A stretch of DNA of 64,000 nucleotides, taken from assembly GCA_012520575.1 (NCBI GenBank), contig JAAYOB010000018.1, positions 5,524 through 69,523 on the forward strand, given 5' to 3'. Positions within the stretch are counted from its first letter, which is position 1; each line of letters begins with the position of its first letter. This stretch comes from Candidatus Stramentimicrobium fermentans. GTDB taxonomy: Bacteria; Atribacterota; Phoenicimicrobiia; Phoenicimicrobiales; Stramentimicrobiaceae. A program made the position numbers and the translations under genes. Below the pieces are notes generated by a model, which saw only the letters and a list, made by a program, of their open reading frames with translations, was not told where the DNA came from and ran no database searches. Shown here one piece after another: positions 47,725 through 62,881 of this stretch.

Positions 47725-47874
47725 ATTGCGCATAAGGGGTATAACAGGTTATCGGTTTAAATTTTTTACAGCTGAGTCACAAACTAAGATCTTTCCTCTT
47801 TTTAGTTTCAGATTATAGCCATTGGTGTATACTGTTAATTTTTAATTGTCAATTAAAAATTGTAAAAAAATTGT

Positions 47875-47903
47875 TTGACATTCAAATTTGTTAATGGTAA
47901 TAT
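47875..47903 (+). promoter_or_regulatory. Sigma-70 type promoter of the arcC-pyrB operon
   Basis: Perfect TTGACA (47875-47880), 17-base spacer, TAATAT (47898-47903). Transcription would start near 47910, just ahead of the PyrR-type hairpin, which is where attenuation control needs it. Confidence 0.8.
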
Positions 47904-47918
47904 TTTTTTGAAAAATAT

Positions 47919-48055
47919 CTTTAATTTAGTCCAGAGAGGCTAGAAAGGCAACTAAAAGTTTTGAATACTTTTGCTAACATCTTGCTATACCTGAGCATAA
48001 AAATAGAAAATGAGTTAAATGGAGATCTTCCCCGTTTTTCGGGGGAGATTTTTTT
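47919..48055 (+). promoter_or_regulatory. PyrR-type transcription attenuator
   Basis: The leader RNA carries AGTCCAGAGAGGCT (47928-47941), which matches the PyrR binding loop of Bacillus-type pyr operons, closed by TAG/CTA and a lower stem CTTT..TTTAGT with ACTAAAAG. A strong intrinsic terminator follows at 48025-48055. In the known mechanism UMP-bound PyrR stabilises this hairpin and lets the terminator form, so genes downstream are expressed when pyrimidines are low. No pyrR gene is in the window. The competing antiterminator was not traced base by base. Confidence 0.75.
48025..48055 (+). terminator. Attenuator terminator before arcC
   Basis: ATCTTCCCCG (48025-48034) pairs with CGGGGGAGAT (48040-48049) around TTTTT, followed by a run of seven T. 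A strong intrinsic terminator located within a leader rather than after a gene. Confidence 0.88.
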
Positions 48056-48256
48056 ATATCTGAATAATAACTTAAAGGATGAGGAAAATGATTATTGATA
48101 AATTTTATGAGGAGTTTTATAGAGCCCGGCTTATGTAGAGTTTTATTTTCTTACAAGTTGTTGCCGGATATTTATTGTTTTTTTGCTTATCTCTATTAAA
48201 GGGTTTATGGATATATTTAAGATAGTTAAATAAAAAGTAAGGAGAATAAACAAAAA

Positions 48257-49225
48257 ATGGCCAATACCATATTAATCGCGCTGGGTGGCAATGCTATCAA
48301 ACAAGCAGATGAAAAAGGTACTACAGAAGAACAATTCAAAAACTGTCGGGAGACAACAGGGCATATTGCAAATATCATTCAATATCTTGCTCCGGAAGAC
48401 CGTTTAATTATTACACACGGCAATGGTCCACAAGTGGGTAATCTTATGGTTCAGCAGAAAGCCGCCCAGAATATAGTGCCGGCACACCCAATGGATGTAG
48501 TAGGTGCCATGACTCAGGGGCAAATAGGCTATATGCTGCAACAGACATTGATGAATCATTTAAATGAAAAGAATATAAAAAAACCGGTCTGTGTTTTATT
48601 GAACCAGGTGTTGGTAGACAGCAATGATCCGGAATTTATAGGAGAAAATGCCTCTAAGCCGGTTGGTAATTTCCTAACAAAAGAAGAGGTCCAGGAATTA
48701 AAAATTAAGCACCCCGAATATATTGTTAAAAAAGTAAAACCCAATGACGAGCGCTGTTGGAGAAGGGTAGTCCCTTCTCCTGACCCTATTGCCAATTTGG
48801 ATGGAGAGGTAATTAATAAATTAGTTGATGCCGGTGTTGTTGTAATTACCTCCGGTGGAGGAGGGATACCGGTATTGGAGAATGGAAAGGGACAATTAAA
48901 AGGGATAGAAGCGGTTATTGACAAAGATTTGGCCGGAGAAAGGTTGGCTAAGATTGTGGGAGCAAATATTATGTTTGTACTTACCGATGTAGAAAAAGCC
49001 AAGATTAATTACGGTAAAGCTGATGAACAAGATTTAGGGAAAATAAGCTATGATGTAGCGAAAAAGTATTATGATGAAGGTCAATTCTTAGCGGGGAGTA
49101 TGGGTCCTAAAGTGAAAGCCTGCCTAAGATTCCTGGAAAATGGCGGAGAGAAAGCCATTATATCCTCTTTAGATAAAGTGGTAGAAGCTTATCGTGGTGA
49201 AACGGGTACTATTATTGCGAAATAG
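48257..49225 (+). CDS. arcC: Carbamate kinase
   Basis: 322 residues. It interconverts carbamoyl phosphate + ADP with carbamate + ATP, usually in the ATP-forming direction. Family marks: ILIALGGNAIKQADEKGT at the start, IITHGNGPQVGNLMVQQ, WRRVVPSPDP, VVITSGGGGIPV and FLAGSMGPKVKACLRF. AAGGAG is about 12 bases before the ATG. It is the first gene behind the PyrR-type attenuator and 50 bases before pyrB, an arrangement that ties it to carbamoyl phosphate use or formation by aspartate carbamoyltransferase rather than to arginine breakdown. Confidence 0.95.
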   Translation: MANTILIALGGNAIKQADEKGTTEEQFKNCRETTGHIANIIQYLAPEDRLIITHGNGPQVGNLMVQQKAAQNIVPAHPMDVVGAMTQGQIGYMLQQTLMNHLNEKNIKKPVCVLLNQVLVDSNDPEFIGENASKPVGNFLTKEEVQELKIKHPEYIVKKVKPNDERCWRRVVPSPDPIANLDGEVINKLVDAGVVVITSGGGGIPVLENGKGQLKGIEAVIDKDLAGERLAKIVGANIMFVLTDVEKAKINYGKADEQDLGKISYDVAKKYYDEGQFLAGSMGPKVKACLRFLENGGEKAIISSLDKVVEAYRGETGTIIAK

Positions 49226-49275
49226 ATAAATATAATTTATATAGAATCCAGAATACTTTAAAGGAGCTTTAAACT

Positions 49276-50199
49276 ATGTTACGGGGAAAAGACATTTTAA
49301 GCATGGTCCAGTTTTCCAAGCAAGAGCTTAACCTCATTATGAATACCGCAGCCAGTTATGAGCGCAGAGTTAAGAACAATGATTATATTGACGATATGGA
49401 TGGGCAAGTCGTCGCTTGCCTCTTTTTTGAACCAAGCACCAGAACACGTCTTTCTTTTGAATCGGCTGCTAACAGATTAGATGCCAGGGTAATTAATGTG
49501 ATTGGAGCAGACAGTTCTTCTACCGCTAAAGGAGAAAGCTTAGAGGATACTATTAGAGTAGTAGATGGTTATATTGATGTTATTGTAATACGCCATTCTA
49601 TAATCGGCTCTGCTCAAATCGCTGCCGATAATGCTGTCCATCCGGTTATCAATGCGGGTGACGGAAGTAATCAACATCCTACTCAATCCCTCGTTGATAT
49701 CTATACAATTCGTAAAGAAAAAGGCACCTTAAACGGACACACTGTTACCTTTTTAGGAGATTTAAAATATGGCAGAACCGTCCACTCCCTAGGCTATTTC
49801 ATGACCCTTTACGGTAATAAGATGATATTTGTTTCACCTAAAGCCTTATGTATGCCTGAAGAATTGACCGCTGATTTCCGCAGTCGTGGTGCAGATATAG
49901 AAGAGACTGAAAATTTAGAAGAAGCCCTTGCTAAAAGTGACATTGTTTATGTTACCAGGATACAAAAAGAAAGATTTGCTGACTCGGAGGAATATAATAG
50001 ACTGAAAGGTAGTTATATTATAGACCGGAATACCATTGCCAGAGCCAAAAAAGGAATTACCGTTCTCCATCCGTTGCCAAGGGTTGATGAGATAGCCACC
50101 GATGTAGATGACTATGAGGGTGCTGCCTATTTCAGACAGGCCAATAATGGCATGTATGTTCGTATGGCCTTGCTTTCTTTAGTCAGTGGTAGTGTGTAA
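49276..50199 (+). CDS. pyrB: Aspartate carbamoyltransferase catalytic subunit
   Basis: 307 residues. It condenses carbamoyl phosphate with aspartate to N-carbamoyl-aspartate. The carbamoyl phosphate site FEPSTRTRLSFESA, the catalytic HPTQSLVD and the aspartate-site segments GDLKYGRTVHSLGYF and VLHPLPRVDEIATDVD are those of the enterobacterial/archaeal-type enzyme, not of ornithine transcarbamoylase or YgeW. That type often pairs with a PyrI regulatory chain, which is absent here. AAGGAG precedes the ATG. Carbamate kinase lies directly upstream and a pyrD remnant directly downstream. Confidence 0.95.
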   Translation: MLRGKDILSMVQFSKQELNLIMNTAASYERRVKNNDYIDDMDGQVVACLFFEPSTRTRLSFESAANRLDARVINVIGADSSSTAKGESLEDTIRVVDGYIDVIVIRHSIIGSAQIAADNAVHPVINAGDGSNQHPTQSLVDIYTIRKEKGTLNGHTVTFLGDLKYGRTVHSLGYFMTLYGNKMIFVSPKALCMPEELTADFRSRGADIEETENLEEALAKSDIVYVTRIQKERFADSEEYNRLKGSYIIDRNTIARAKKGITVLHPLPRVDEIATDVDDYEGAAYFRQANNGMYVRMALLSLVSGSV

Positions 50200-50243
50200 T
50201 CGTAGAAAATTAAATTTAAACAAGATTAACTATCAGGCTTTTA

Positions 50244-50432
50244 ATTATTCGTATGGTTTGGGAAGTTAGGAAAGTAGTTAATGTTCCTATAATTAACACA
50301 GACGGCATAATATGTGTAGAAGATGCTTTGGAAATATTTTGGCTGGTAAACGCTATTCAGACAGGAAGCCAGTTTTAATAATCCTATGGTTACATATTAA
50401 ATAGCAGAGGACATTAAAAAAATATTTAGATA
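50244..50432 (+). pseudogene. pyrD: Remnant of dihydroorotate dehydrogenase (PyrD) C-terminus
   Basis: In the gap after pyrB one frame reads RMVWEVRKVVNVPIINTDG then GIICVEDALEIFWLVNAIQT and GSQF before a stop; the neighbouring frame continues NNPMVTY, stop, IAEDIKKIFR. This follows the end of PyrD proteins (RMVWEVxKAVxIPIIGxGG, EDALEFILAGAxAVQxGT, NPMVxxEIxxGI). The N-terminal three quarters are missing and stops and a frameshift are present. It shows that the attenuator-arcC-pyrB unit once continued with pyrD. Confidence 0.75.
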
Positions 50433-50597
50433 AAAAATTATATATCCTTAATCAAGGATACTGTTGGCATTGTCTAAGTATTTCAAAATAAAAGAACACC
50501 ATGCCTCTCACTATTTTAATATAAATACATAGTTACCAATTTTTAAAGTTTTTACATAATTAAATTGAATACCTAAACTTATAAGGAGGAGCAGCCT

Positions 50598-51464
50598 GTG
50601 AGTTTACAGATGATTATCAATGCCATTCTGTTAGGAGGATTGTATGCTTTGATGGGAATAGGGTTTTCTTTGCAATGGGGTATTAGCGGCATCATCAATC
50701 TTTCCTATGGGGCTATGGTAGTGCTGGGCTCGTATATATCTTTAATCATTTTTGATGTATTTAAAATTGACCCGTTTATTAGCATGTTGTTTTCCGGCTT
50801 TTTATTATTTCTGATAGGTGCATTTGCCTATAAATTCATAATCCAGCCCTCTATTAAAGGTGGCATTGTTTTTACTCTTATTATTACCTTTGCACTCAGA
50901 CTGATAGTAGAAAACTTAATACTCTATATTTGGTCTGCAGACTATCGAACTATTAGGATTAGTTATGCAGGGCGTAATTTCCAATTTTTAAATTCATTTG
51001 TTCCACTTACCAAGTTTATTACCTTTCTAATAGCAGGAATCTTAATTTACTTTACGCACTTATTTATGATGAATACCAAAATTGGCAAAGGAATTCAGGC
51101 AGTTTCCTTAGACAAAATAGGTGCATTGGCAGTTGGGGTAGATGATAAAAAAATGTATCTGATAAATTTTGCTGTCGGAACCGCTCTTGCCGGTATTACC
51201 GGGTCACTATGGGCAACTGTCTATAGTTTTTCTCCACATGTAATTGATGTTATTATTGGCCGAGTCTTTATTATTGCCATTTTGGGTGGTTTGGGAAATA
51301 TTTGGGGTGCAGCCGCGGGAGGAATGCTTTTGGGATTTGTTGAAACCTGCGGGGCTACCTTTCTTGGGGCCCATTGGCAAGAAGCAATCGGTCTGGCAAT
51401 GATGGTCTTAATTCTTCTGTTCAGACCACACGGCTTAATGGGCAAAAAATTTTTTGGGCAATAA
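50598..51464 (+). CDS. livH: Branched-chain amino acid type ABC transporter permease LivH
   Basis: 288 residues, about eight membrane helices. Family marks: AILLGGLYALMGIGFSLQWG, LSYGAMVVLGSYISLI, IQAVSLDKIGALAVGVD (the cytoplasmic coupling region) and ILGGLGNIWGAAAGGMLLG. The GTG start has AAGGAGG nine bases upstream. First gene of livH-M-G-F-K. The family also includes urea and nucleobase or ureide importers, so the substrate here is open; the metabolic neighbours favour an aspartate-related or ureide compound. Confidence 0.92.
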   Translation: MSLQMIINAILLGGLYALMGIGFSLQWGISGIINLSYGAMVVLGSYISLIIFDVFKIDPFISMLFSGFLLFLIGAFAYKFIIQPSIKGGIVFTLIITFALRLIVENLILYIWSADYRTIRISYAGRNFQFLNSFVPLTKFITFLIAGILIYFTHLFMMNTKIGKGIQAVSLDKIGALAVGVDDKKMYLINFAVGTALAGITGSLWATVYSFSPHVIDVIIGRVFIIAILGGLGNIWGAAAGGMLLGFVETCGATFLGAHWQEAIGLAMMVLILLFRPHGLMGKKFFGQ

Positions 51465-51519
51465 GTAAATGTTTGATTATAGCTTTAGGTTTATCTGTTT
51501 AGAGAGGAAGTGAGAATAG

Positions 51520-52506
51520 GTGTTGGTACAAAATGATAAGAGATGTACTATGAACATAGTATGGATTGTCGTTGCTATTATTATTTTTACAATTTTGCCT
51601 AATTTTATTTCCGGTTATTATATCCGCATACTTACCGCAATTTTCATGTATGCTGTTTTATCTCAGTGTATTAATCTGATGTCCGGTTACATGGGATACC
51701 TGCCCTTTGGACATGTGATGTTTTTTGGTATAGGTGCCTATATGACTGCTATCTTGATGAGAGGGAATCTGCCCTTTATAGTCGCTATGTTGCTAGCTTC
51801 TCTATCCGCGATAGTGGTGAGCATTATTTTGGGATTCCCTGTACTTAGACTAAGAGGGCACTATTTTGCAATTGCTACTATCGGTATGAATGGAGCACTT
51901 ATGACAGTGGTTCAGAATATCGATATTACGGGAGGGGCAAGAGGCACTACCTTTCCCATAATTATGCTTCCGCCGGGTCAGGTTTATAGCTATTTTTATT
52001 ATGCCTTTTTAGCTCTGATGATTATAACCACCTTTGCCATCTATTTCATTGTTAATTCCAGATTTGGATTTGCCATTAGAAGTATTAAAGCAAATGAAGA
52101 TGCAGCCAACTCTATGGGGATAAATACTACCAATACCAAAGTAGTAACCTGGGCAATCGCCGCTCTATTTACCAGTATCGCCGGAGGATTGTATGGTTAC
52201 TGGATGTCCTTTATAGCACCCGATGAAGTATTTGACCTGATGTTTATTACTAATTCCATAATTATGATGCTTATTGGAGGAGCGGGAACAATTTTAGGGC
52301 CTGTCATCGGAGCTTTTATTGTTGAAACGGTATCAGAATTTGCTTGGAGTGGTTTCATGGAATACCATTTAGCAGTGCTGGGTATAATAACTATCATCAT
52401 AGTCTTTTTTGTTCCGGGAGGTGTTATCGGCACTATTACTGAGAAAATTAGAGATAGAAAAATAGCTGCCAGTATAAAGTCGGAGGTAGCAGCTAATGAT
52501 CGATAA
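51520..52506 (+). CDS. livM: Branched-chain amino acid type ABC transporter permease LivM
   Basis: 328 residues, second membrane subunit. Marks: CINLMSGYMGYLPFGHVMFFG near the start, LRLRGHYFAIATIGMNGAL, FAIRSIKANEDAANSMGI (coupling region) and IGGAGTILGPVIGAFIVETV. The frame begins GTG-TTG at 51520 behind GAGGAAG; an ATG at 51550 lacks a nearby site. It overlaps livG by 11 bases. An internal phrase GGARGTTFPI replaces the more usual GGxxGL, as in divergent Liv systems. Confidence 0.9.
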   Translation: MLVQNDKRCTMNIVWIVVAIIIFTILPNFISGYYIRILTAIFMYAVLSQCINLMSGYMGYLPFGHVMFFGIGAYMTAILMRGNLPFIVAMLLASLSAIVVSIILGFPVLRLRGHYFAIATIGMNGALMTVVQNIDITGGARGTTFPIIMLPPGQVYSYFYYAFLALMIITTFAIYFIVNSRFGFAIRSIKANEDAANSMGINTTNTKVVTWAIAALFTSIAGGLYGYWMSFIAPDEVFDLMFITNSIIMMLIGGAGTILGPVIGAFIVETVSEFAWSGFMEYHLAVLGIITIIIVFFVPGGVIGTITEKIRDRKIAASIKSEVAANDR

Positions 52507-53269
52507 TAATAATGTCATATTGGATGTCAGAGCTATAAGTAGACATTTTGGTGCCTTAAAAGCTGTTGACCGGGTATCTTTCCAGGTAAGGAAGGGGGAG
52601 ATTATCGGTTTGATTGGTCCCAATGGTGCCGGGAAAACCACCATAACTAATCTGGTTACCGGTGATTTAAAAAAGAATGCGGGTGAAGTCCATTATAAGG
52701 GAACCGATGTTAGCAGTATGCAGCCATTTCAGATTGCCCGTATTGGTTTAACCAGAACCTATCAGATAGTAAAACCATTACAGGGCATGACTGTGGAAGA
52801 GAATGTTTTAGTTGGCTCCCTTTATGGTCGCGGTAATAGAATAAATGATTTAAGTAATGCACGGAAAACAGTCCATGATGTAATGGAATTAGTCGGATTG
52901 TACAAAAAGAAAGATTTCATGGTAAGTGATGTTACTCTTCCTGATTTAAAGCGTATGGAGTTTGCTCGAGTTTTAGCGATGGATCCGGAGGTGGTTTTCT
53001 TAGATGAAGTTATGGCTGGGCTTAACCCTTCTGAAGTGGAAGAATCGATGGAATTGGTGAAGAAAGTTAGAGAGGATAGACAATTAACCATAGTCTATAT
53101 TGAACACATTATGAAAGCAGTAATGGGAATTTCTGATCGAATTATTGTGTTGCACCATGGCAAAAAGATATGTGAAGGCTCTCCTCAAGAAGTTCGTGAT
53201 AACCCTGCGGTTATAGAGGCTTATCTAGGTAAAAAGTATGCCAAGGAGGTTATGAAAGCAAATGAATAG
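52496..53269 (+). CDS. livG: ABC transporter ATPase LivG
   Basis: 257 residues. Walker A GPNGAGKTT, a long insert after the Q-loop (RTYQIVKPLQGMTVEENVLV) as usual for LivG, a degenerate signature (VSDVTLPDLKRMEFARVLA instead of LSxGQxR), and Walker B VVFLDEVMAGLNPSE. The degenerate LSGG motif, where the family usually has LSxGxxR, is noteworthy but LivF carries an intact one. GGAGG precedes the ATG. Overlaps livF by eight bases. Confidence 0.9.
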   Translation: MIDNNNVILDVRAISRHFGALKAVDRVSFQVRKGEIIGLIGPNGAGKTTITNLVTGDLKKNAGEVHYKGTDVSSMQPFQIARIGLTRTYQIVKPLQGMTVEENVLVGSLYGRGNRINDLSNARKTVHDVMELVGLYKKKDFMVSDVTLPDLKRMEFARVLAMDPEVVFLDEVMAGLNPSEVEESMELVKKVREDRQLTIVYIEHIMKAVMGISDRIIVLHHGKKICEGSPQEVRDNPAVIEAYLGKKYAKEVMKANE

Positions 53270-53990
53270 CAACACTTTGTTAAAAACAATAGGTATTAAT
53301 GCTGGTTATGGGGCTATCCAGGTATTATGGGATGTGAGTTTTGAACTGAATAAGAAAGAAATAGTTTGCTTTATTGGGACCAACGGTGCCGGTAAAACCA
53401 CTTTTCTAAATAATATTGTGGGGATCTTAAAACCTTTTTGTGGTCAGATAATATACCAGAATCAGGATGTCACCCAGCTCAATTCTCCGGAGAGAATAAA
53501 AATGGGTATTGGTTATGCACCGGAAGGAAGACACCTTTTCCTCGGTTTAACTGTTGAAGATAATCTACTGATGGGTGCTTTTCCACGGAAAGTTAATCAC
53601 AGAACTCTCAAAGAAGATCTTGACTTTATATATAATTTATTCAAACCCCTTAAGGGATACCGAAAAAAATATGCCGGTAATCTTTCCGGAGGAGAACAAC
53701 AGATGTGTGCTATTGGTAGGGCACTTATGTCTAAACCGATTCTACTGATTATCGATGAATTGTCTTTGGGATTAGCCCCGGTAGTAGTAGATGATTTAAT
53801 TGAAACTATTATTAGATTGAGGGACGAAGAGGGGATAACTATTTTGATAGTCGAGCAGGATGTGCAGGTAGCCCTGGATATCGCCGATCGAGGTTATGTG
53901 TTTGAAAACGGCTCTATAGCGATGGAAGGATATTCTGAAAATTTGGCTAAAAATAAGCATATCAAGACAGCATATCTCGGTATTGCTTAA
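53262..53990 (+). CDS. livF: ABC transporter ATPase LivF
   Basis: 242 residues. Walker A GTNGAGKTT, the LivF-type region IGYAPEGRHLFLGLTVEDNL, signature NLSGGEQQMCAIGRAL and Walker B LLIIDELSLGLAP, with the H-loop position occupied by Gln (VEQDVQVAL), as in many LivF proteins. It pairs with LivG to power LivHM. AAGGAGG lies 11 bases before the start inside livG. Confidence 0.92.
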   Translation: MNSNTLLKTIGINAGYGAIQVLWDVSFELNKKEIVCFIGTNGAGKTTFLNNIVGILKPFCGQIIYQNQDVTQLNSPERIKMGIGYAPEGRHLFLGLTVEDNLLMGAFPRKVNHRTLKEDLDFIYNLFKPLKGYRKKYAGNLSGGEQQMCAIGRALMSKPILLIIDELSLGLAPVVVDDLIETIIRLRDEEGITILIVEQDVQVALDIADRGYVFENGSIAMEGYSENLAKNKHIKTAYLGIA

Positions 53991-54099
53991 TATATGAATC
54001 AATTCGATTAATAGGGAGGTGATTGAATATTAAAGGTCTTATTTTTCAATAATAGTACCAAGTAAAAAGATAAAGAATAAACGGAGGAAAGTAAAAATA

Positions 54100-55329
54100 A
54101 TGAAAAAAGCCACGGTAGTATTCTTAGTAAGCATGTTCTTGTTAGTTTCAGCTGTAGCTGTATTTGCACAGCAGTTTGATGATATAATTAAAATTGGAGC
54201 AGCAGTCTCCCTTACCGGTAAAACAGCATATGAAGGTCAAATGGTTAAGCGGGGATATGAGGTATGGGAAAAATGGGTTAATGAACATGGTGGAATTAAG
54301 GCTGATGGTAAAACCTATGGTGTAGAAGTTCTTTATTATGATGATGAGAGTGACCCGGTACGTTCGGCAAGACTAACGGAAAGATTGATAACCGAAGATA
54401 ACGTTAATTTTTTAGCCGGACCTTATTCTAGTTCGATCACTTTTGCTACAACAGCCATCGGTGAAAAATATGGGGTTATAACTATTGCTTCCACTGCCAA
54501 CGCCAGAAATATCTATGAACGAGGGTATAAAAATGTCTTTTCAGTTCTTCCGCCGGCACCATTACTTATGGCTCCAATTGCTTATATGATGGATGAAGTG
54601 CTGGAACCCAGACCCAAGACGGTAGCTATTGTTGTAGCTAATGATTTATTTCCACTGGATGTTGCTACCGGATTTAATGATATCTGCACAGAACTTGGGT
54701 TTGACGTTGTGATGTTCGAAAAATACCCTCCTGGTTCTACAGACCTATCTGCCTTATTAACAAAGGTCAAAGCTCTAGATGCGGATATTTTAGCTGGCGG
54801 AGGATACACCGCTGATGCCTTGATGATTTTAAGGCAGTGCAAGGAATTAGATTACACTCCCAAAATGTTCGCCAGTATAGTGGGGGTATTTGTACCAGGC
54901 TTTTTAAAGGAAATAGGTGCTGATGGTAATTACGCAGTAGAGGGTGAATGGTGGGTACCGGCAATGAAAACCGAGGACCACATATTTGGGACAACTGAAA
55001 ATTACTTACAAGCTTGTATAGATATGTTTGGAGATGATTTTATAGCTAACTATCAGACAGCTGCCGCTAGTGCAACCGTTAGCATCATTCAAATGGCTAT
55101 TGAAAAAGCAGGAACTATTGAAACTGAACAAGTAAGAGATGCATTAAAAAGCTTTGATGTAATCGAGCTTGCTTGTTTCTCACCGGTTGAGTTTGCTGAA
55201 AATGGAGAGAATATCCAATGGGAGCACCCGGTAATCCAAATTCAAAATGAAGTAGTGAAAGTGGTATATCCATTAAGTTCGCAAGAAAGTGCACCACTTT
55301 ATCCGGCTCCAACCTGGAAAGAAAGATAA
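54100..55329 (+). CDS. livK: ABC transporter substrate-binding protein, LivK-like
   Basis: 409 residues. Signal peptide FLVSMFLLVSAVAVFAQQ, then a type I periplasmic binding fold: IIKIGAAVSLTGKTAYEGQM, EVLYYDDESDPVRSARLTER, FLAGPYSSSITFATTAI and VAIVVANDLFPLDVATGF. The ligand is an amino acid or similar small amide in known relatives. GGAGG precedes the ATG. It follows livF by about 110 bases and is separated from the fumarase genes by a broken amidohydrolase. Confidence 0.92.
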   Translation: MKKATVVFLVSMFLLVSAVAVFAQQFDDIIKIGAAVSLTGKTAYEGQMVKRGYEVWEKWVNEHGGIKADGKTYGVEVLYYDDESDPVRSARLTERLITEDNVNFLAGPYSSSITFATTAIGEKYGVITIASTANARNIYERGYKNVFSVLPPAPLLMAPIAYMMDEVLEPRPKTVAIVVANDLFPLDVATGFNDICTELGFDVVMFEKYPPGSTDLSALLTKVKALDADILAGGGYTADALMILRQCKELDYTPKMFASIVGVFVPGFLKEIGADGNYAVEGEWWVPAMKTEDHIFGTTENYLQACIDMFGDDFIANYQTAAASATVSIIQMAIEKAGTIETEQVRDALKSFDVIELACFSPVEFAENGENIQWEHPVIQIQNEVVKVVYPLSSQESAPLYPAPTWKER

Positions 55330-57119
55330 TAAATAAAGCAATTAATCAAGGGGGTTTCCATTATTATGATTGCCCACCCCTTTGACTTATTTAACTATTT
55401 AGGGGTCTTTGAGAAATAAACCCATATTATAGACTAGAATAATGAGTATGGGTAGGAATATTTATTTATCATATTGCTATAAAAATAGGTAAGATAAAAA
55501 TATTTAGTAATATTTCTATAATAATACAATACAATATTTAGTTTAATACATTTAATAGTTGACAAGAATTATCAAAATTGACAGCATTTGGGTTTGATAA
55601 ACTAATTTAGTCTAGCGATTTAAGATTGCAACTCTCAAGTAGGGGCTATGCAGTATATAATAAGAGACAAACATGTTATTTACGACTCAGAAATTAATTC
55701 AAATAGAATATTAACAGATGCTACTGTTTGGCTGTTTGTGTTTTTGATGGTAAAATTGAAAGTACAGGGTTTTATGTTTTAAAATAAAAATATCCAGACA
55801 ATACAATCAAGGGTAATGGTGGGCAATAATATGCCTGGTTTAATGAACGCTCATATTCATGGTGCGGTGTTATCTCCATTCCAACAAGGAGTTGTATATG
55901 ATTATGCTGAGTGCAATATTATGTGCAATGCGTCATTTGTGTAATGGTTGCACTACATTACGTCACAACCAATTCAGTAATCAAAATGGATTTTAATAAT
56001 GTCAAGAAGATTTTAAACGGTTATAGCAAAGTTGGAATCAGAGTTGCTTGTTCAAGTGGAATTAGTGACTTAAATATGATTAAATATAATAATAAAGAAC
56101 TTTTTAAAGCTCTCCCTCCAGAATTACAACAATACTTTAAACCAATTATATATCAGCATAAAAACCTGATACAAGAAAAGTATTTTGAGCACTTTTACTA
56201 GTTATTTAATGAATTTAATTAAAAAAGATAGAAAAATTACTTTCGGTCCTCTCTTGGTATAGGGTGCACAGATGAATTCCTATTAAAAATCAAAGAAGAA
56301 TCAGATAAAATAGGGAAAATTCCGATACTTATACATACCTTTCAGACCTTAATTCAAAAAAACTATGATAAACAAAAATATGGAAAATCTCTATTGTTTC
56401 ATTTAAAAGGTCCGGGTTTAGTTGATAGCTCTTTAGTTTTAGGGTATGCAGTTTTTCTCAGTGGAAAAGATATTCAATTATATAGCGGAAAATAATGGAT
56501 CTGTCACTCACCATGCAAGTTGTAATTTAGCAGTTAGAAATGGAATTCCCCGGTTTATTATTTACAAAAAGCAGGAGTAAATGTTGCACTAGGAATAAAT
56601 GATAAGGGGATTAATGATGATGAAGACTCTTTTATGGAAATGAGAGTGATTTACTATCTTCACAGAGTGGCCGGTTTCCATTTATCTGCATCAGAAGCTT
56701 TGACACCTTTTGATATTTTGAAAGTGGCTGCCTCGAGCGCAGCAAATAGTTAATTTTAATGGTTCAATAGGTGCTCTTAATAGGAATGAAAGCAGATCCG
56801 GCTTTATTAGGCCCCAGTCGTATTTTAGGAGATCCCTGGATGAACCCCTGTTGAATATCATTGAGATTATCATTCATAGAGCAAAGGGTTATAATGTACA
56901 TTCAGTTATGGTCAGTGGTGAGCGTGTAATTGAAAATAAAAAGTTTTGATGAAATATATATCGATTCAGTATATTAAAGAAGCTAAAGGCCAAGTTAACG
57001 AAGGCAATAGCCAAGAGCAAGTTGAATATGCTGAATATCTACGGCAAATAAAGCCCTATTGCCAAGCATGGCACAATCAATATCTTAATAAATATACTAA
57101 ATAGGAGGCAAAGATAACA
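55330..57119 (+). other. Interval between livK and the fumarase genes, mostly a pseudogene
   Basis: About 1.8 kb without an intact gene. The first 300 bases are AT-rich and include a weak hairpin near 55348-55384 (AAGGGGGT with ACCCCTT) that could end the liv transcript. From 55648 to 57104 the DNA reads as a broken amidohydrolase, listed separately. A 96-codon frame at 55911-56201 is one piece of it. Confidence 0.7.
55648..57104 (+). pseudogene. Broken amidohydrolase (SsnA/guanine deaminase-like)
   Basis: Successive plus-strand frames read MQYIIRDKHVIYDSEIN, MPGLMNAHIHGAVLSPFQQG (metal-binding HxH), SVTHHASCNLAVRNGIP, GVNVALGINDKGINDDEDSF, YYLHRVAGFHLSASEALTPF and VMVSGERVIENKKF. This is the order of motifs in the cytosine/guanine deaminase and chlorohydrolase group of amidohydrolases. 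At least five frameshifts or stops break it. It ends immediately before the AGGAGG of the fumarase alpha gene, so it was once the preceding gene of that operon. Recent decay is suggested by how readable it remains. Confidence 0.8.
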
Positions 57120-57965
57120 ATGAGAAAAATTGATGCTATAGAAATTTCAGACAAAGTGAAGAGCCTGTTTTTGGAAGCAAATTTTAATATAGGGGAGGAT
57201 GTTCTGGAGGCATTAGAAAAAGCCTTAAAAGCAGAAACATCTAAAGTGGGACAAGACGCTTTAAAGATGATTATTGAAAATAACCGCTTAGCCTCTTCTG
57301 AAGAGTTGGCAATATGCCAGGACACCGGACTGGCAGTACTGTTTGTAGAGTTAGGTCAGGAGGTCTGTGTAGTTAATGGCGACTTTACTGAAGCAATTAA
57401 TGAAGGTGTTAAAGCAGCTTATAAGGATGGCTATTTAAGAAAATCGGTAGTAGATGATCCGGTATTTGATAGGAAGAATACTACCACCAACACCCCAGCC
57501 TTTATCTACACCGACATTGTTCCTGGTGACAAGATTAAGATAACAGCCCTACCTAAAGGTTTTGGCAGTGAGAATATGAGTGCTTTAGCAATGCTCACCG
57601 CAGCTCATGGCGCTAAAGGAATAGTTGATTTCATCGTCGATACTGTTAGAAAAGCAGGTCCTAACCCTTGTCCTCCTACCGTAGTGGGAGTTGGTATTGG
57701 CGGAACAGCCGACAAAGCTATGGTAATAGCCAAAAAGGCAACAGCCCGTTCTATTGGTGAGTATAATGCTAATCCTAAGTATGCTCAGATGGAAAAGGAA
57801 GCCCTAGAAAGAATTAATAAATTGGGTATAGGTCCAGCTGGTTTAGGCGGTAATACTACATCTTTAGCAGTGCATATTAATTATCTGCCTACCCACATTG
57901 CCGGTATGCCGGTTGCGGTTAATGTCTGTTGTCATGCTGCACGTCATGCCTATGGAGAAATTTAA
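57120..57965 (+). CDS. Class I fumarase / tartrate dehydratase-type alpha subunit
   Basis: 281 residues, the Fe-S cluster-bearing N-terminal half of a two-subunit class I hydro-lyase. Cluster cysteines lie in CQDTGLAVLFVELGQ (Cys66), in GPNPCPPTVVGVGIGGTADK and near the end in VNVCCHAARH. GNTTSLAVHINYLPTHIAGM is conserved in FumA/TtdA. AGGAGG precedes the ATG. With the beta subunit it interconverts fumarate and malate; the adjacent malic enzyme and aspartase make fumarase more likely than tartrate dehydratase. Confidence 0.93.
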   Translation: MRKIDAIEISDKVKSLFLEANFNIGEDVLEALEKALKAETSKVGQDALKMIIENNRLASSEELAICQDTGLAVLFVELGQEVCVVNGDFTEAINEGVKAAYKDGYLRKSVVDDPVFDRKNTTTNTPAFIYTDIVPGDKIKITALPKGFGSENMSALAMLTAAHGAKGIVDFIVDTVRKAGPNPCPPTVVGVGIGGTADKAMVIAKKATARSIGEYNANPKYAQMEKEALERINKLGIGPAGLGGNTTSLAVHINYLPTHIAGMPVAVNVCCHAARHAYGEI

Positions 57966-58000
57966 TTTATTAAATACTTGATGGAAGGAGTTTTAGAATA

Positions 58001-58558
58001 ATGAGCCAAGAGATTAAAATCACTACCCCGCTGGATGAATCTGCGGTATTAAAGTTAAAAGCCGGTGATTCAGTGAAGATAACCGGTTATATCTATACCG
58101 GAAGAGATGCTGCCCACAAAAGACTCTTTGAATTAATTAAAGAGGGAAAAGAACTACCAATTACCTTAGAAGGGCAGATAATCTACTATGTAGGTCCTGC
58201 ACCGGCCAAGCCGGACTATGCCTGTGGACCTGCCGGTCCCACAACCAGTTACCGCATGGATTCCTATACCCCCTCTTTATTGGAGAAGGGGTTGAAAGGA
58301 ATGATCGGAAAAGGACTAAGGTCCAAAGAAATAATTGATAGCATGAAAAAAAATAAGGCTGTTTATTTTGCAGCAATCGGTGGAGCTGCCGCCCTAATTT
58401 CCCGTACCATTAAAAAATCTGAGGTTATTGCCTACCCCGATTTGGGAGCAGAGGCTATTCATCGCTACTATGTTGAGGATTTCCCTGCCATTGTCTGTAT
58501 TGATGCCTTCGGGAACGATCTTTATGAGACCGAACCCCCTAAATATAGAAAAGAATAA
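58001..58558 (+). CDS. Class I fumarase / tartrate dehydratase-type beta subunit
   Basis: 185 residues, the C-terminal swivelling half. Marks: LKAGDSVKITGYIYTGRDAAHKRL, YYVGPAPAKPDYACGPAGPTTSYRMD and AAIGGAAALISRTIKKSEVI with an end pattern VEDFPAIVCIDAFGNDLY. GGAG precedes the ATG, 35 bases after the alpha subunit. The two together make one complete hydro-lyase. Confidence 0.93.
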   Translation: MSQEIKITTPLDESAVLKLKAGDSVKITGYIYTGRDAAHKRLFELIKEGKELPITLEGQIIYYVGPAPAKPDYACGPAGPTTSYRMDSYTPSLLEKGLKGMIGKGLRSKEIIDSMKKNKAVYFAAIGGAAALISRTIKKSEVIAYPDLGAEAIHRYYVEDFPAIVCIDAFGNDLYETEPPKYRKE

Positions 58559-58597
58559 TAAAAATATTAAATATTATATTAAAGAAGGAGGCAAATT

Positions 58598-59773
58598 ATG
58601 AATATCAATGAAAAAGCCCTGAAACTGCACAGTGAAAACAGAGGTAAGATAGAGGTAGTAAGTAAGACTGAAATCAAGGACATGCAGGATCTTGCTGTAG
58701 TCTATACCCCGGGAGTAGCTGAACCCTGCCGCAAAATCCATCAGAATAGAGATGATGTCTACACCTATACTACCAAAGGTAATATGGTAGCTGTAGTATC
58801 TGATGGCACAGCAATACTGGGACTGGGTGATATAGGACCTGAAGCCGCTATTCCGGTTATGGAAGGAAAAGCCGTACTATTTAAGTATTTTGCCGGAGTA
58901 GATGCCTTTCCCATTTGTTTAGATACCAAGGATACCGAAGAGATAATAAAAGCCGTTACCCAGATTGCCCCGGTATTCGGCGGAATCAACTTAGAGGACA
59001 TCAGTGCTCCCCGCTGTTTTGAAATAGAAAAGAGATTAAAGGAAACTCTTGATATCCCGGTCTTCCATGATGACCAGCATGGTACAGCAGTAGTAGTTCT
59101 CTCCGGGTTAATCAATGCCCTCAAAGTTGCTAAAAAGAAGATGGAAGAAGCAAAGATAGTGGTAAATGGTGCCGGTGCTGCCTCCATCGCTGTTACTAAA
59201 TTTCTATTCTCTGCCGGTGCAGAGCATGTCATTCTCTGTGACTCCAAGGGTGCTATCTATGAGGGACGTAGTGAAAATATGAACTCAGCCAAAGAGGAGA
59301 TGGCAAAAATTACTAACAAAGATTTACTGAAAGGAACTTTAGCCGATGCCTTAGTAGGTGCTGATGTGTTTATAGGATTATCCGGTCCTAATTTGGTTAC
59401 CAAAGAGATGGTAAAGACTATGGCGCATGATCCCATCATCTTTGCCATGGCTAACCCCATTCCGGAAATATTGCCTGATGAAGCCAAAGCCGGTGGTGCC
59501 CGTATCATCGCTACCGGCCGGTCTGACTTTCCCAACCAGGTGAACAACTGTCTCGGATTTCCAGCACTCTTTAAAGGTGCCCTGCAAGTGAGAGCATCTG
59601 AAATCAATGAAGAGATGAAATTAGCAGCAGCCCATGCCATTGCCTCCGTTATTCCGGATAGTGAATTAAGTGAGAATAACATTATTCCCAATGTCTTTCA
59701 TCCTGAGGTGATGAAGAAAGAGGCAGAAGCAGTAGCTCAGGCAGCACGTGATACCGGAGTAGCTAGAATATAA
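58598..59773 (+). CDS. NAD(P)-dependent malic enzyme
   Basis: 391 residues, the short bacterial form without a phosphotransacetylase tail. It decarboxylates malate to pyruvate. Catalytic tyrosine lies in AVVYTPGVAEPC, the lysine in EGKAVLFKYFAGVDAFPI, metal ligands in NLEDISAPRCFEIE and FHDDQHGTAVV, and the Rossmann loop is VVNGAGAASIAVTKFL. AAGGAGG precedes the ATG. Directly after the fumarase genes, it completes fumarate to malate to pyruvate. Confidence 0.94.
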   Translation: MNINEKALKLHSENRGKIEVVSKTEIKDMQDLAVVYTPGVAEPCRKIHQNRDDVYTYTTKGNMVAVVSDGTAILGLGDIGPEAAIPVMEGKAVLFKYFAGVDAFPICLDTKDTEEIIKAVTQIAPVFGGINLEDISAPRCFEIEKRLKETLDIPVFHDDQHGTAVVVLSGLINALKVAKKKMEEAKIVVNGAGAASIAVTKFLFSAGAEHVILCDSKGAIYEGRSENMNSAKEEMAKITNKDLLKGTLADALVGADVFIGLSGPNLVTKEMVKTMAHDPIIFAMANPIPEILPDEAKAGGARIIATGRSDFPNQVNNCLGFPALFKGALQVRASEINEEMKLAAAHAIASVIPDSELSENNIIPNVFHPEVMKKEAEAVAQAARDTGVARI

Positions 59774-59797
59774 GGATACAGGTTTGAATCAACAAAT

Positions 59798-59828
59798 AAT
59801 CCCCACCTTTAAGGGGAGGGTGGGGATT
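59798..59828 (+). terminator. Hairpin after malic enzyme
   Basis: AATCCCCACC (59798-59807) pairs with GGTGGGGATT (59819-59828). The stem is GC-rich and stable but only a weak T-rich stretch follows about seven bases later, so it may protect mRNA ends or give partial termination before aspA. Confidence 0.55.
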
Positions 59829-59948
59829 ACAATCTGTTTTGGATTACTTAAACAGTCTTATTTTGGTATCCAGTCTAATTAATATTACACTGCACGGATT
59901 GAGTTTCTAAAAATATAGAATTATAACAATAGAATTAAGGAGATAAAA

Positions 59949-61370
59949 ATGGCAAACTATCGTATTGAAGAAGATTTATTGGGTAAAAAGGAAGTACCTA
60001 AAGAAGCCTATTATGGTATACAGACTTTAAGAGCTCGAGAAAATTTTCATCTCACCGGTCTGAAAATGGATAAAGATTTTATTAAAGCTTTAGGAATAGT
60101 TAAGAAAGCTGCAGCAAAGGCTAATATGGATGTTGGTCTTCTTGATGAAAAACGGGCAAAAGCCATTATAGAAGCTTCTCAAGAGGTAATTGATGGTAAA
60201 CTGAACGATGAGTTTGTGCTCGATGTGATTCAAGGCGGGGCGGGAACTTCCAATAATATGAATGCCAATGAGGTAATTGCTAACAGAGCTATTGAACTTT
60301 ACGGAGAAGGAGAAAGAGGAGATACTTCTGTTATATCTTCTTTAACCCATGTCAATATGGCGCAATCAACCAATGATGCTGTTCCCACAGCCATCAAGAT
60401 TGCACTTCTCATCAAATCGAAGGGTTTATTAGATGCTACCGATAAATTGGCAAAATCTTTTAGAGTAAAAGCTAAAGAATTTGACCATGTTTTAAAGATG
60501 GGGCGAACTCATCTGCAAGATGCTGTTCCTATAAGATTAGGTCAAGAATTTGCCGCTCATGCTACTGCTATTGAAAGATCAAGGGAGAGAATAGCCCTAT
60601 CTATAGAAGGTTTGAAAACCATAAATATGGGTGCCACAGCAGTAGGTACTTGCCTTAATGCAGATCCTGAATATATTAAAAAAGTTGAAAAAGAGTTAAG
60701 TAGTATATCCGGTTTTGATCTGGTTGTTGCTGAGGACTTGGTAGATGCTACCCAGCATACAGATGCCTATATAGAGGCATCATCAGCAATAAAAGCTCTG
60801 GCAGTAGTACTATCAAAAGTAGCCAATGACTTTAGGTTGATGGCTTCCGGACCAAGGGCAGGAATATTTGAAATTAGATTACCTGAAGTTCAGCCCGGTT
60901 CTTCTATTATGCCCGGAAAAGTAAATCCGGTCATTTTAGAGGCAACTAACCAAGTTGCTTTCCAGATAATGGGTAATGACCTGACTGTAAACTTGGCCGC
61001 TGAGGCAGGTCAGCTGGAATTGAATGTGATGGAGCCGGTGTTAGCTTTCAATTTAATGCAGAGTTTCGATCTTATAACTAATGTTCAGAATATGCTTAGA
61101 GAAAAATGTATAGACGGCATTATAGCCAATGTAGAAAGATGCAAGGAATTAGTAGAAAAAAGTATTGGCACGTTAACAGCTTTAAATCCCCATATCGGAT
61201 ATGAACAGACTTGTCTGGTTGCCAGAGAAGCATTTCTGAAAGATAAGAGTGTCAGAGAAGTAGTTTTAGAGCATAAAATAATTAGCGAAGATAAGCTAAA
61301 CAGGATACTCGACCCTTATGAAATGACCAACCCAGGTATCGCCGGAAAAGAATTGTTAGAGCATAAGTAA
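59949..61370 (+). CDS. aspA: Aspartate ammonia-lyase (aspartase)
   Basis: 473 residues of the aspartase/class II fumarase superfamily. It removes ammonia from aspartate to give fumarate. Marks: YRIEEDLLGKKEVPKEAYYG at the start, GGAGTSNNMNANEVIANRA, MAQSTNDAVPTAIK, GRTHLQDAVPIRLGQEF and the mobile catalytic loop GSSIMPGKVNPVI. Aspartase is favoured over class II fumarase by the N-terminal pattern and because a class I fumarase is already encoded next door. A GGAG precedes the ATG. Confidence 0.9.
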   Translation: MANYRIEEDLLGKKEVPKEAYYGIQTLRARENFHLTGLKMDKDFIKALGIVKKAAAKANMDVGLLDEKRAKAIIEASQEVIDGKLNDEFVLDVIQGGAGTSNNMNANEVIANRAIELYGEGERGDTSVISSLTHVNMAQSTNDAVPTAIKIALLIKSKGLLDATDKLAKSFRVKAKEFDHVLKMGRTHLQDAVPIRLGQEFAAHATAIERSRERIALSIEGLKTINMGATAVGTCLNADPEYIKKVEKELSSISGFDLVVAEDLVDATQHTDAYIEASSAIKALAVVLSKVANDFRLMASGPRAGIFEIRLPEVQPGSSIMPGKVNPVILEATNQVAFQIMGNDLTVNLAAEAGQLELNVMEPVLAFNLMQSFDLITNVQNMLREKCIDGIIANVERCKELVEKSIGTLTALNPHIGYEQTCLVAREAFLKDKSVREVVLEHKIISEDKLNRILDPYEMTNPGIAGKELLEHK

Positions 61371-61442
61371 GTTGTTCAAATATTAATATAATAGTTATAA
61401 AAGCTATAGACATACTCTTTGTTAAACACAGGAGGAAAGATA

Positions 61443-62822
61443 TTGGATAATTTTGACCTGGCTATTAATTTTGGCGATGTGTTTTTGAATGGTGAGTTAG
61501 TGAATTGTAATATTGGTATCAAAGGCGGAAAGATTGCAGCATTAAGTAAAGATGTTTTAAATGGGGAAAAGGTCATTGATGCAAAAGGTAAAACTGTTTT
61601 ACCCGGCACGGTAGACCCTCATGTTCACATCAGAGTCCCGGGTAATGAATACCGGGAGACATTTCTAACCGGAACAGAAGAGGCTGCTTTAGGTGGTGTT
61701 ACTACTGTACTGGAAATGCCCATTTCTTCCCCACCACCTTATTCACTGGAAATAGTAGAAAACCGGATGTCTATTGCAGCAAATGAGGTGGTAGTGGATA
61801 TTGCCTTTTTCGGTGCGGCTGGTACAGACCAAAAGGATTGCATTATCCCCTGTTCTAAATCCGGCATAGCTGCCTTTAAAACATTTTTACATGAAGCACC
61901 TGAAGGAAGGGAAAAAGAGTTTATAGGACTGACTGCCCCTGATACCGGTGACCAGTATGAACTGATGGAAATTTTGGCTGAGACAGGGCTTATCACTGCT
62001 TTTCATGCTGAAAATAATGACATGATTAAAAAGAATATCGCCCGCCTTAGAAAAGAGGGAAAGACCTCTCCAATTTATCATGAAAGGTCTCGGCCCCCTG
62101 TGGTAGAGATTGAAACCACTGCAAAAATATTACTGTTTGCGGAAAAGACCGGGGCAAAGGTAGAAATTGCCCATATCAGTACACCGGAGGCGGCTCTATT
62201 AGTGCAAGATGCAAAGGATAAAGGGGTATACGCCATTGCCGAAACCTGTCCTCACTACTTATTCTTAAATGAAGAGAATCTTATTAAGCATGGTTCTTTC
62301 GCCAAATGTAACCCGCCAGTCAGAAGTGAAGAGCAGCGAGAAGGGATGTGGGAATTACTAAGAGCGGGATTTTTTGATATAGTGGGAAGTGACCATGCTC
62401 CCTACACTAAAGAAGAGAAAGAAAAGGGTAACGGAGATATCTTCGTACCCCCAGCCGGTTTCCCGGGGCTTTCTACCAGACTGCCCCTAATGTTTACCGC
62501 AGTTAAAGAGGGTAAGATAGACCTGGCTCTGATGGTAGAGTTAATATGTGAAAACCCGGCTCGTATCTTCGGATTGTATCCGCAAAAGGGCGTGATTCTG
62601 CCCGGTTGTGATGCGGACCTGATTATTATTGATCCTGACAAAAAAGGAAAGATAGACAAGAACAAGATGTTTACTAAGTGCCGGGATAGCGCCTTGGTCT
62701 ATGATGGCTGGGAAGTTTACGGGCAACCGGAACAGACTATTGTCAGAGGGGAAGTTGTTTATGAACATGGTGCAATAAAGGTCAAACCGGGGTATGGCAG
62801 GATTATCAAAGTAGTACACTAA
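61443..62822 (+). CDS. Dihydroorotase/allantoinase-like cyclic amidohydrolase
   Basis: About 459 residues. Metal-site motifs: DPHVHIRVPGNEYRETFLTG, the lysine to be carboxylated in AAFKTFLHEA, FHAEN, EIAHIST and the catalytic aspartate in VGSDHAPYTKEEKE. The opening of the metal motif is dihydroorotase-like, while the lysine position and GGVTTVLEMPISSPP are closer to allantoinase/hydantoinase. The start is TTG at 61443 with AGGAGG seven bases upstream; an in-frame TTG at 61419 precedes that site. It follows aspartase by 70 bases and should open a cyclic ureide such as dihydroorotate, allantoin or a hydantoin. Confidence 0.88.
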   Translation: MDNFDLAINFGDVFLNGELVNCNIGIKGGKIAALSKDVLNGEKVIDAKGKTVLPGTVDPHVHIRVPGNEYRETFLTGTEEAALGGVTTVLEMPISSPPPYSLEIVENRMSIAANEVVVDIAFFGAAGTDQKDCIIPCSKSGIAAFKTFLHEAPEGREKEFIGLTAPDTGDQYELMEILAETGLITAFHAENNDMIKKNIARLRKEGKTSPIYHERSRPPVVEIETTAKILLFAEKTGAKVEIAHISTPEAALLVQDAKDKGVYAIAETCPHYLFLNEENLIKHGSFAKCNPPVRSEEQREGMWELLRAGFFDIVGSDHAPYTKEEKEKGNGDIFVPPAGFPGLSTRLPLMFTAVKEGKIDLALMVELICENPARIFGLYPQKGVILPGCDADLIIIDPDKKGKIDKNKMFTKCRDSALVYDGWEVYGQPEQTIVRGEVVYEHGAIKVKPGYGRIIKVVH

Positions 62823-62833
62823 TTGGTCTAACC

Positions 62834-62881
62834 AAACTAACAGTTTACTGATTTAGATTAACAGTAAATAAAGGTTAGTTT
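62834..62881. terminator. Hairpin terminator after the amidohydrolase
   Basis: AAACTAAC (62834-62841) pairs with GTTAGTTT (62874-62881), with an inner helix AGTTTACTG / CAGTAAAT. T-rich on the 3' side and A-rich on the 5' side, so it may serve both the amidohydrolase and the convergent genes on the right. Confidence 0.7.

Follow-up and report, generated by a model that had tools for sequence, protein, structure and literature searches.

A carbamate kinase-aspartate carbamoyltransferase gene pair behind a copied PyrR leader in Candidatus Stramentimicrobium fermentans, a probable entry into pyrimidine biosynthesis

Results

Gene content of the locus

The window, by which we mean the whole analyzed stretch of 64,000 nucleotides (G000:C45:5524-69523), stems from the genome of Candidatus Stramentimicrobium fermentans (hereafter G000), a draft of 1.58 Mb in 50 contigs that is 98% complete. 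From arcC to the cyclic amidohydrolase gene, every gene of the locus is encoded on the plus strand. Coordinates are those of the window, and the cut-offs of the TIGR profiles are the curated ones:

47866..48131, +, copy of the pyrF-operon leader (promoter, PyrR site, terminator, ribosome binding site, pyrF start)
47875..47903, +, predicted sigma-70-like promoter TTGACA-17-TAATAT (a consensus match alone is no proof)
47914..48058, +, predicted PyrR binding site/attenuator (RF00515, 59.2 bits, Rfam gathering threshold 54)
48021..48053, +, the attenuator's intrinsic terminator (94% identity with that of the pyrF leader)
48088..48138, +, 5'-terminal piece of pyrF, left over as a 16-codon ORF (MIIDKFYEEFYRARLM, then a stop)
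48257..49225, +, arcC, carbamate kinase (TIGR00746, 363.7 bits, cut-off 358.25)
49276..50199, +, pyrB, aspartate carbamoyltransferase (TIGR00670, 368.9 bits, cut-off 236.95)
50229..50474, +, pyrD2 remnant (second DHODH gene in the ancestral locus; tblastn E=3e-14)
50598..53990, +, Liv importer: permeases 50598-51464 and 51520-52506, ATPases 52496-53269 and 53262-53990
54100..55329, +, Liv-type substrate-binding protein (Peripla_BP_6)
about 55780..56960, +, broken amidohydrolase, chlorohydrolase/SsnA-like pseudogene with frameshifts and stops
57120-57965 and 58001-58558, +, class I fumarase, alpha and beta, intact
58598..59773, +, malic enzyme, intact (PF00390, PF03949)
59949..61370, +, aspartase aspA, intact (PRK12273, 670 bits, cut-off 510)
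61419..62822, +, cyclic amidohydrolase, putative dihydroorotase or carboxymethylhydantoinase (TIGR00857, 290 bits, cut-off 279.05)

An earlier note on this DNA had named carbamate kinase, aspartate carbamoyltransferase, a Liv importer, class I fumarase, malic enzyme, aspartase and an amidohydrolase as neighbors on one strand, and all of them were recovered as intact genes. The two members that it had called broken are indeed broken: the pyrD2 remnant aligns with residues 221-303 of the pyrD found at this position in relatives, and the pieces of the pseudogene gave weak matches to the chlorohydrolase/SsnA type (best E=4e-5). Two of the four importer subunits have profile support; the importer shares 79-85% identity with that of G001, and its gene order is the same in relatives.

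ArcC is 52% identical to the Pyrococcus carbamate kinase structure 1e19. This nearest solved structure was considered as a marker of an anabolic ArcC and discarded, since the ArcC of a ureide cluster in a relative also matches 1e19 first. The nearest structure of PyrB (1ml4, P. abyssi) is equally undiagnostic, as the canonical PyrB of G007 has the same top match. If G000 is compared with its genus, dN/dS amounts to 0.04-0.05 for arcC, 0.08-0.10 for pyrB and 0.035-0.045 for the amidohydrolase gene. These values resemble those of the pyrF-K-D-E genes and indicate purifying selection on all three.

The amidohydrolase had been labeled dihydroorotase/allantoinase-like. Its TIGR00857 score is above the cut-off, and the protein stays below the allantoinase cut-off and below that for hydantoinases as well. 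Overall, its scores fall between dihydroorotases, allantoinases and hydantoinases and are closer to hydantoinases and allantoinase. It is the single cyclic amidohydrolase match in G000, where class II dihydroorotase is absent. The residues that we presume to be metal ligands (HxH, Lys, His, His and Asp) are all present, in DPHVH, AFKTF, FHAEN, IAHIS and GSDHA. Among the carboxylate binders of dihydroorotase, which we take to be Arg, Asn and His, one of three is kept, namely the Arg of HxHxR (HVHIRxPG), while Asn became Ile (MPIS for MPN) and His became Tyr (DHAPY for DHAPH). The enzyme would probably act as dihydroorotase in G000. In relatives, a hydantoin racemase gene adjoins the amidohydrolase gene, which makes 5-carboxymethylhydantoin plausible as original substrate; to our knowledge, no gene is assigned to carboxymethylhydantoinase (EC 3.5.2.4). 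Recoding of in-frame stops, considered for the amidohydrolases of family f2, was dismissed: in G022, the one case checked, the alignment begins before the ATG.

The leader of arcC

The 266-base leader of arcC aligns with the pyrF leader of the same genome (L109, G000:C30) with 76% identity over 274 bp (blastn, E=2e-48), and fainter homology extends past 48131 to about 48205. The identity is 88% in the promoter, 93% in the PyrR site and 94% in the terminator, against about 55% each in the spacer and the pyrF fragment. Thus, the regulatory elements were preserved whereas the remainder decayed. Among the leaders of the genus, the one of arcC is closest to the pyrF leader of G000, and both have details in common that are missing in G001-G004. 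A PyrR motif precedes pyrF in G000, G001, G002 and G003; in front of the arcC genes of relatives, none was found at thresholds as permissive as E=2. By these alignments, the arcC leader is a duplicate of the pyrF leader that arose in the lineage of G000.

The PyrR-type attenuator that had been pointed out ahead of arcC-pyrB holds up against the Rfam model. PyrR is encoded as well (G000:C10:7879-8400; NF003549, 244 bits, cut-off 138), so that two components of a PyrR-regulated operon are present, the site with its terminator upstream of arcC and the gene of the regulator. PyrR may well bind to this leader. In G002, the interval between cob and arcC contains a GGDEF-type gene and IclR, which, from its position, would control the locus in relatives. 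The leader copy occupies the place of IclR, so that control of the module has probably shifted from IclR to PyrR. The pyrF leftover retains a Shine-Dalgarno-like GAGGAAA, and its translation would yield a 16-residue peptide ahead of arcC.

Pyrimidine and carbamoyl phosphate genes elsewhere in the genome

A search of the remaining genome for carAB, pyrE and pyrF, as the earlier note had advised, gave a divided result: pyrE and pyrF are present, grouped as pyrF, pyrK, pyrD and pyrE on contig 30 behind a PyrR leader, and carAB is absent. This absence refers to a 98% complete draft, in which the best matches reached 30.0 bits for CarA (cut-off 307) and 25.7 bits for CarB (cut-off 1027), while 14 of 14 controls were positive in the same profile searches. 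Four genomes of the same genus lack CarAB, too. No OTC was detected in G000 either, the window pyrB being its sole transcarbamoylase match. In G001 and G003, OTC lies beside pyrR; the syntenic flanks are joined in G000, with 85 residues of a neighboring gene left, which marks a deletion and not an assembly gap. ArcC of G000 therefore lacks the OTC partner that an arginine-deiminase-type ArcC would have. HypF, an additional consumer of carbamoyl phosphate, is encoded.

With pyrF-K-D-E present and CarAB missing, no entry into pyrimidine synthesis other than ArcC-PyrB is visible. Any de novo formation of UMP must then draw its carbamoyl phosphate, carbamoyl-aspartate and dihydroorotate from arcC, pyrB and the amidohydrolase gene.

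The locus in related genomes

Conservation in relatives had been proposed as a check on the locus, and the linkage of arcC-pyrB-(pyrKD)-liv-...-amidohydrolase does recur in two families, the one comprising the genus itself and a sister family, so that it is not due to chance. The order in relatives is IclR - arcC - pyrB - pyrK2 - pyrD2 - livHMGFK - ... - amidohydrolase, with local gains and losses; between liv and the amidohydrolase gene may lie aldehyde:ferredoxin oxidoreductase and hydantoin racemase, and aspartase or PEP carboxykinase. Examples are L035+L160 (G001), L036+L161 (G002), L037 (G003), L041+L162 (G021), L044+L100 (G013), L047+L099 (G010) and L038 (G022). None of the relatives showed the contrary case, with arcC-pyrB as part of a complete pyr operon distant from liv. 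At L047:15784-18744, genes for aldehyde:ferredoxin oxidoreductase, hydantoin racemase and a small iron-sulphur protein with weak similarity to AegA/YgfT lie directly 5' of the amidohydrolase gene.

The pyrD2 sequences of the locus branch separately from the biosynthetic pyrD present in these genomes (support 100/99); the second DHODH is thus a copy dedicated to the locus. It is intact in G001, G003, G013 and G021. In the window only the remnant is left, and the DHODH expected of an orotate fermentation locus is missing there. G000 lost pyrK2-pyrD2, IclR and the hydantoin racemase, and the oxidoreductase is missing from its locus position. The missing parts would serve catabolism alone, and they comprise most parts of this kind. 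In relatives, the locus probably degrades a cyclic ureide via carbamoyl-aspartate.

Eleven genomes contain arcC together with the locus pyrB; nine of them lack CarAB and two (G011, G016) possess it. No arcC was detected among the 25 genomes searched from families f4-f7 of the phylum, and CarAB occurs in most of them. This distribution agrees with arcC replacing CarAB, in genomes that are related and hence not independent.

Several relatives deviate from the common arrangement. G014, G017 and G020 (L039, L045, L046) carry the locus pyrB without adjacent arcC, and all three lack CarAB; a distant arcC lies elsewhere in G014 and G017, none in G020. G007 encodes CarAB and pyrB-pyrI-pyrC; there, an arcC with 72% identity to that of the window adjoins an aspartase/fumarase-family gene without pyrB (L098:3670-6151). 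G004 (1.1 Mb; L170, L114-L115) possesses pyrF-K-D-E and the amidohydrolase gene, with no match for arcC, ATCase, PyrR or CarAB; either sequence is missing or G004 scavenges late intermediates.

Discussion

We consider it probable that arcC-pyrB of G000 is a biosynthetic operon, switched by PyrR and UMP, that leads from ArcC via PyrB and the amidohydrolase to pyrF-K-D-E. Evidence for this comes from the gene content, the duplicated and conserved leader, the gene losses and the purifying selection. Carbamate kinase normally breaks carbamoyl phosphate down. In G000, ArcC would instead use ATP to phosphorylate carbamate formed from NH4+ and HCO3-, and PyrB, whose equilibrium lies far towards carbamoyl-aspartate, would trap the carbamoyl phosphate in this form and thereby pull the unfavorable ArcC step. 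The amidohydrolase would then close the ring, and pyrF-K-D-E on the other contig would complete UMP. Through their sister leaders, both gene groups would respond to PyrR and UMP. The duplication of the pyrF leader into the position of IclR, as seen by comparison with a relative, would have turned genes of a larger, catabolic-looking locus to biosynthesis.

Some observations argue against this interpretation. Of the three presumed carboxylate binders, the amidohydrolase has kept one, and its scores are closer to hydantoinases and allantoinase. Liv, fum, mae and aspA persist though unnecessary for UMP, and the genome sequence is a draft. In addition, carbamate kinase favors ATP formation (PMC13260591).

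Anabolic and catabolic carbamate kinases are structurally alike (PMC6022934), and the direction of ArcC is consequently inferred from its context. The closest precedent is the anabolic carbamate kinase proposed for Pyrococcus furiosus and P. abyssi (1e19; PMC6022934), where an apparently CPS-less genome likewise goes along with a carbamate kinase linked to ATCase. G000 differs in being bacterial, in having one arcC-pyrB operon behind a PyrR leader and in lacking OTC. The physiological role of the enzyme in Thermococcales is disputed: according to a 2026 genetic study, Thermococcus obtains carbamoyl phosphate from arginine and not by carbamate kinase, since deletion of arcC in T. kodakarensis barely altered carbamoyl phosphate supply while OTC was not dispensable (PMC13260591). 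Such an OTC route is closed in G000, because OTC is missing. At least as cited there, CPS-less E. coli grew with the P. furiosus carbamate kinase and 20-50 mM ammonium bicarbonate (PMC13260591).

With known PyrR-attenuated pyr operons (RF00515), G000 shares the PyrR site, the terminator, the PyrR protein and the pyr genes 3' of the leader; in contrast to them, its leader, a copy of the one at its own pyrF operon, drives a carbamate kinase gene. We found no PyrR-controlled bacterial carbamate kinase in the literature. Synthesis of carbamoyl phosphate by carbamate kinase in vivo has been disputed since the Pyrococcus work. G000 lacks the classical CPS and the OTC route, yet contains carbamate kinase and ATCase under the predicted UMP switch that also precedes its other pyrimidine genes. 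Its arcC-pyrB is a clean gene pair that can be tested in a mesophile, and as a bacterial UMP-switched case it would make anabolic carbamate kinase testable. It would also exemplify how a catabolic-looking operon is made biosynthetic through regulatory leader capture.

A wider and more tentative interpretation, possible but doubtful in our view, takes the locus as an ancestral, reversible carbamoyl-aspartate pathway that is used for fermentation in relatives, was reversed for UMP and had its direction fixed by the leader in G000. Relatives would gain aspartate and ATP by fermenting orotate or 5-carboxymethylhydantoin with racemase, amidohydrolase, PyrB and ArcC. Run in reverse, these enzymes would be the single way in which the lineage makes UMP since it lost CarAB, and the amidohydrolase gene would be that of carboxymethylhydantoinase, whose product doubles as dihydroorotase.

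The earlier note had envisioned a catabolic ureide or orotate pathway: the locus would ferment orotate, dihydroorotate or a related ureide, with carbamoyl-aspartate split by PyrB running backwards, ATP formed by ArcC, and aspartate passing via fumarate and malate to pyruvate. This idea suits the relatives, where IclR, a second PyrKD clade, Liv, oxidoreductase, racemase and aspartase or PEP carboxykinase are conserved and where G011 and G016 keep CarAB in addition to the locus. It suits G000 less well and is unlikely there: pyrKD2, IclR, racemase and oxidoreductase are missing, CarAB is absent, and a UMP-sensing leader would turn arcC-pyrB on during pyrimidine shortage. The relatives' locus resembles orotate fermentation by Clostridium oroticum in its DHODH, cyclic amidohydrolase and route from aspartate to C3 compounds. 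C. oroticum splits carbamoyl-aspartate by hydrolysis, whereas here PyrB and ArcC would do so, and in G000 the pathway is incomplete. Genes for orotate fermentation were not found in the literature.

Alternatively, ArcC, PyrB and the amidohydrolase could be amphibolic, fermenting imported ureides when these are abundant and otherwise supplying UMP. The nine genomes with arcC and locus pyrB but without CarAB possess pyrE/pyrF, and most retain catabolism-type genes, in favor of this idea. However, they also show OTC-type matches, and thus an alternative source of carbamoyl phosphate, and the PyrR control in G000 argues for a single dominant direction there, which renders amphibolic use quite improbable. 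That pyrF-K-D-E merely salvages imported orotate or dihydroorotate, with ArcC-PyrB a leftover or in other use, would fit the importer within the locus and the lack of arcC or pyrB in some relatives (G004, G020), but is very improbable in view of the strong purifying selection on arcC and pyrB and the PyrR switch they share with pyrF-K-D-E.

Apart from the biosynthetic role favored here, the gene set invites comparison with ygeW-arcC-type ureide/purine clusters, which likewise combine transcarbamoylase, carbamate kinase and cyclic amidohydrolase, while their transcarbamoylases are divergent and the window locus encodes a true ATCase. Such clusters are present in relatives, at L172:6551-18112 (G022) and L173:4475-17254 (G010), with a divergent transcarbamoylase and a hydantoinase-like enzyme. 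Both comprise an extra ATCase-like gene, 36-37% identical to the window PyrB, and the one of G022 includes arcC. With two transcarbamoylase genes adjacent, they look like clusters for ureide or purine breakdown.
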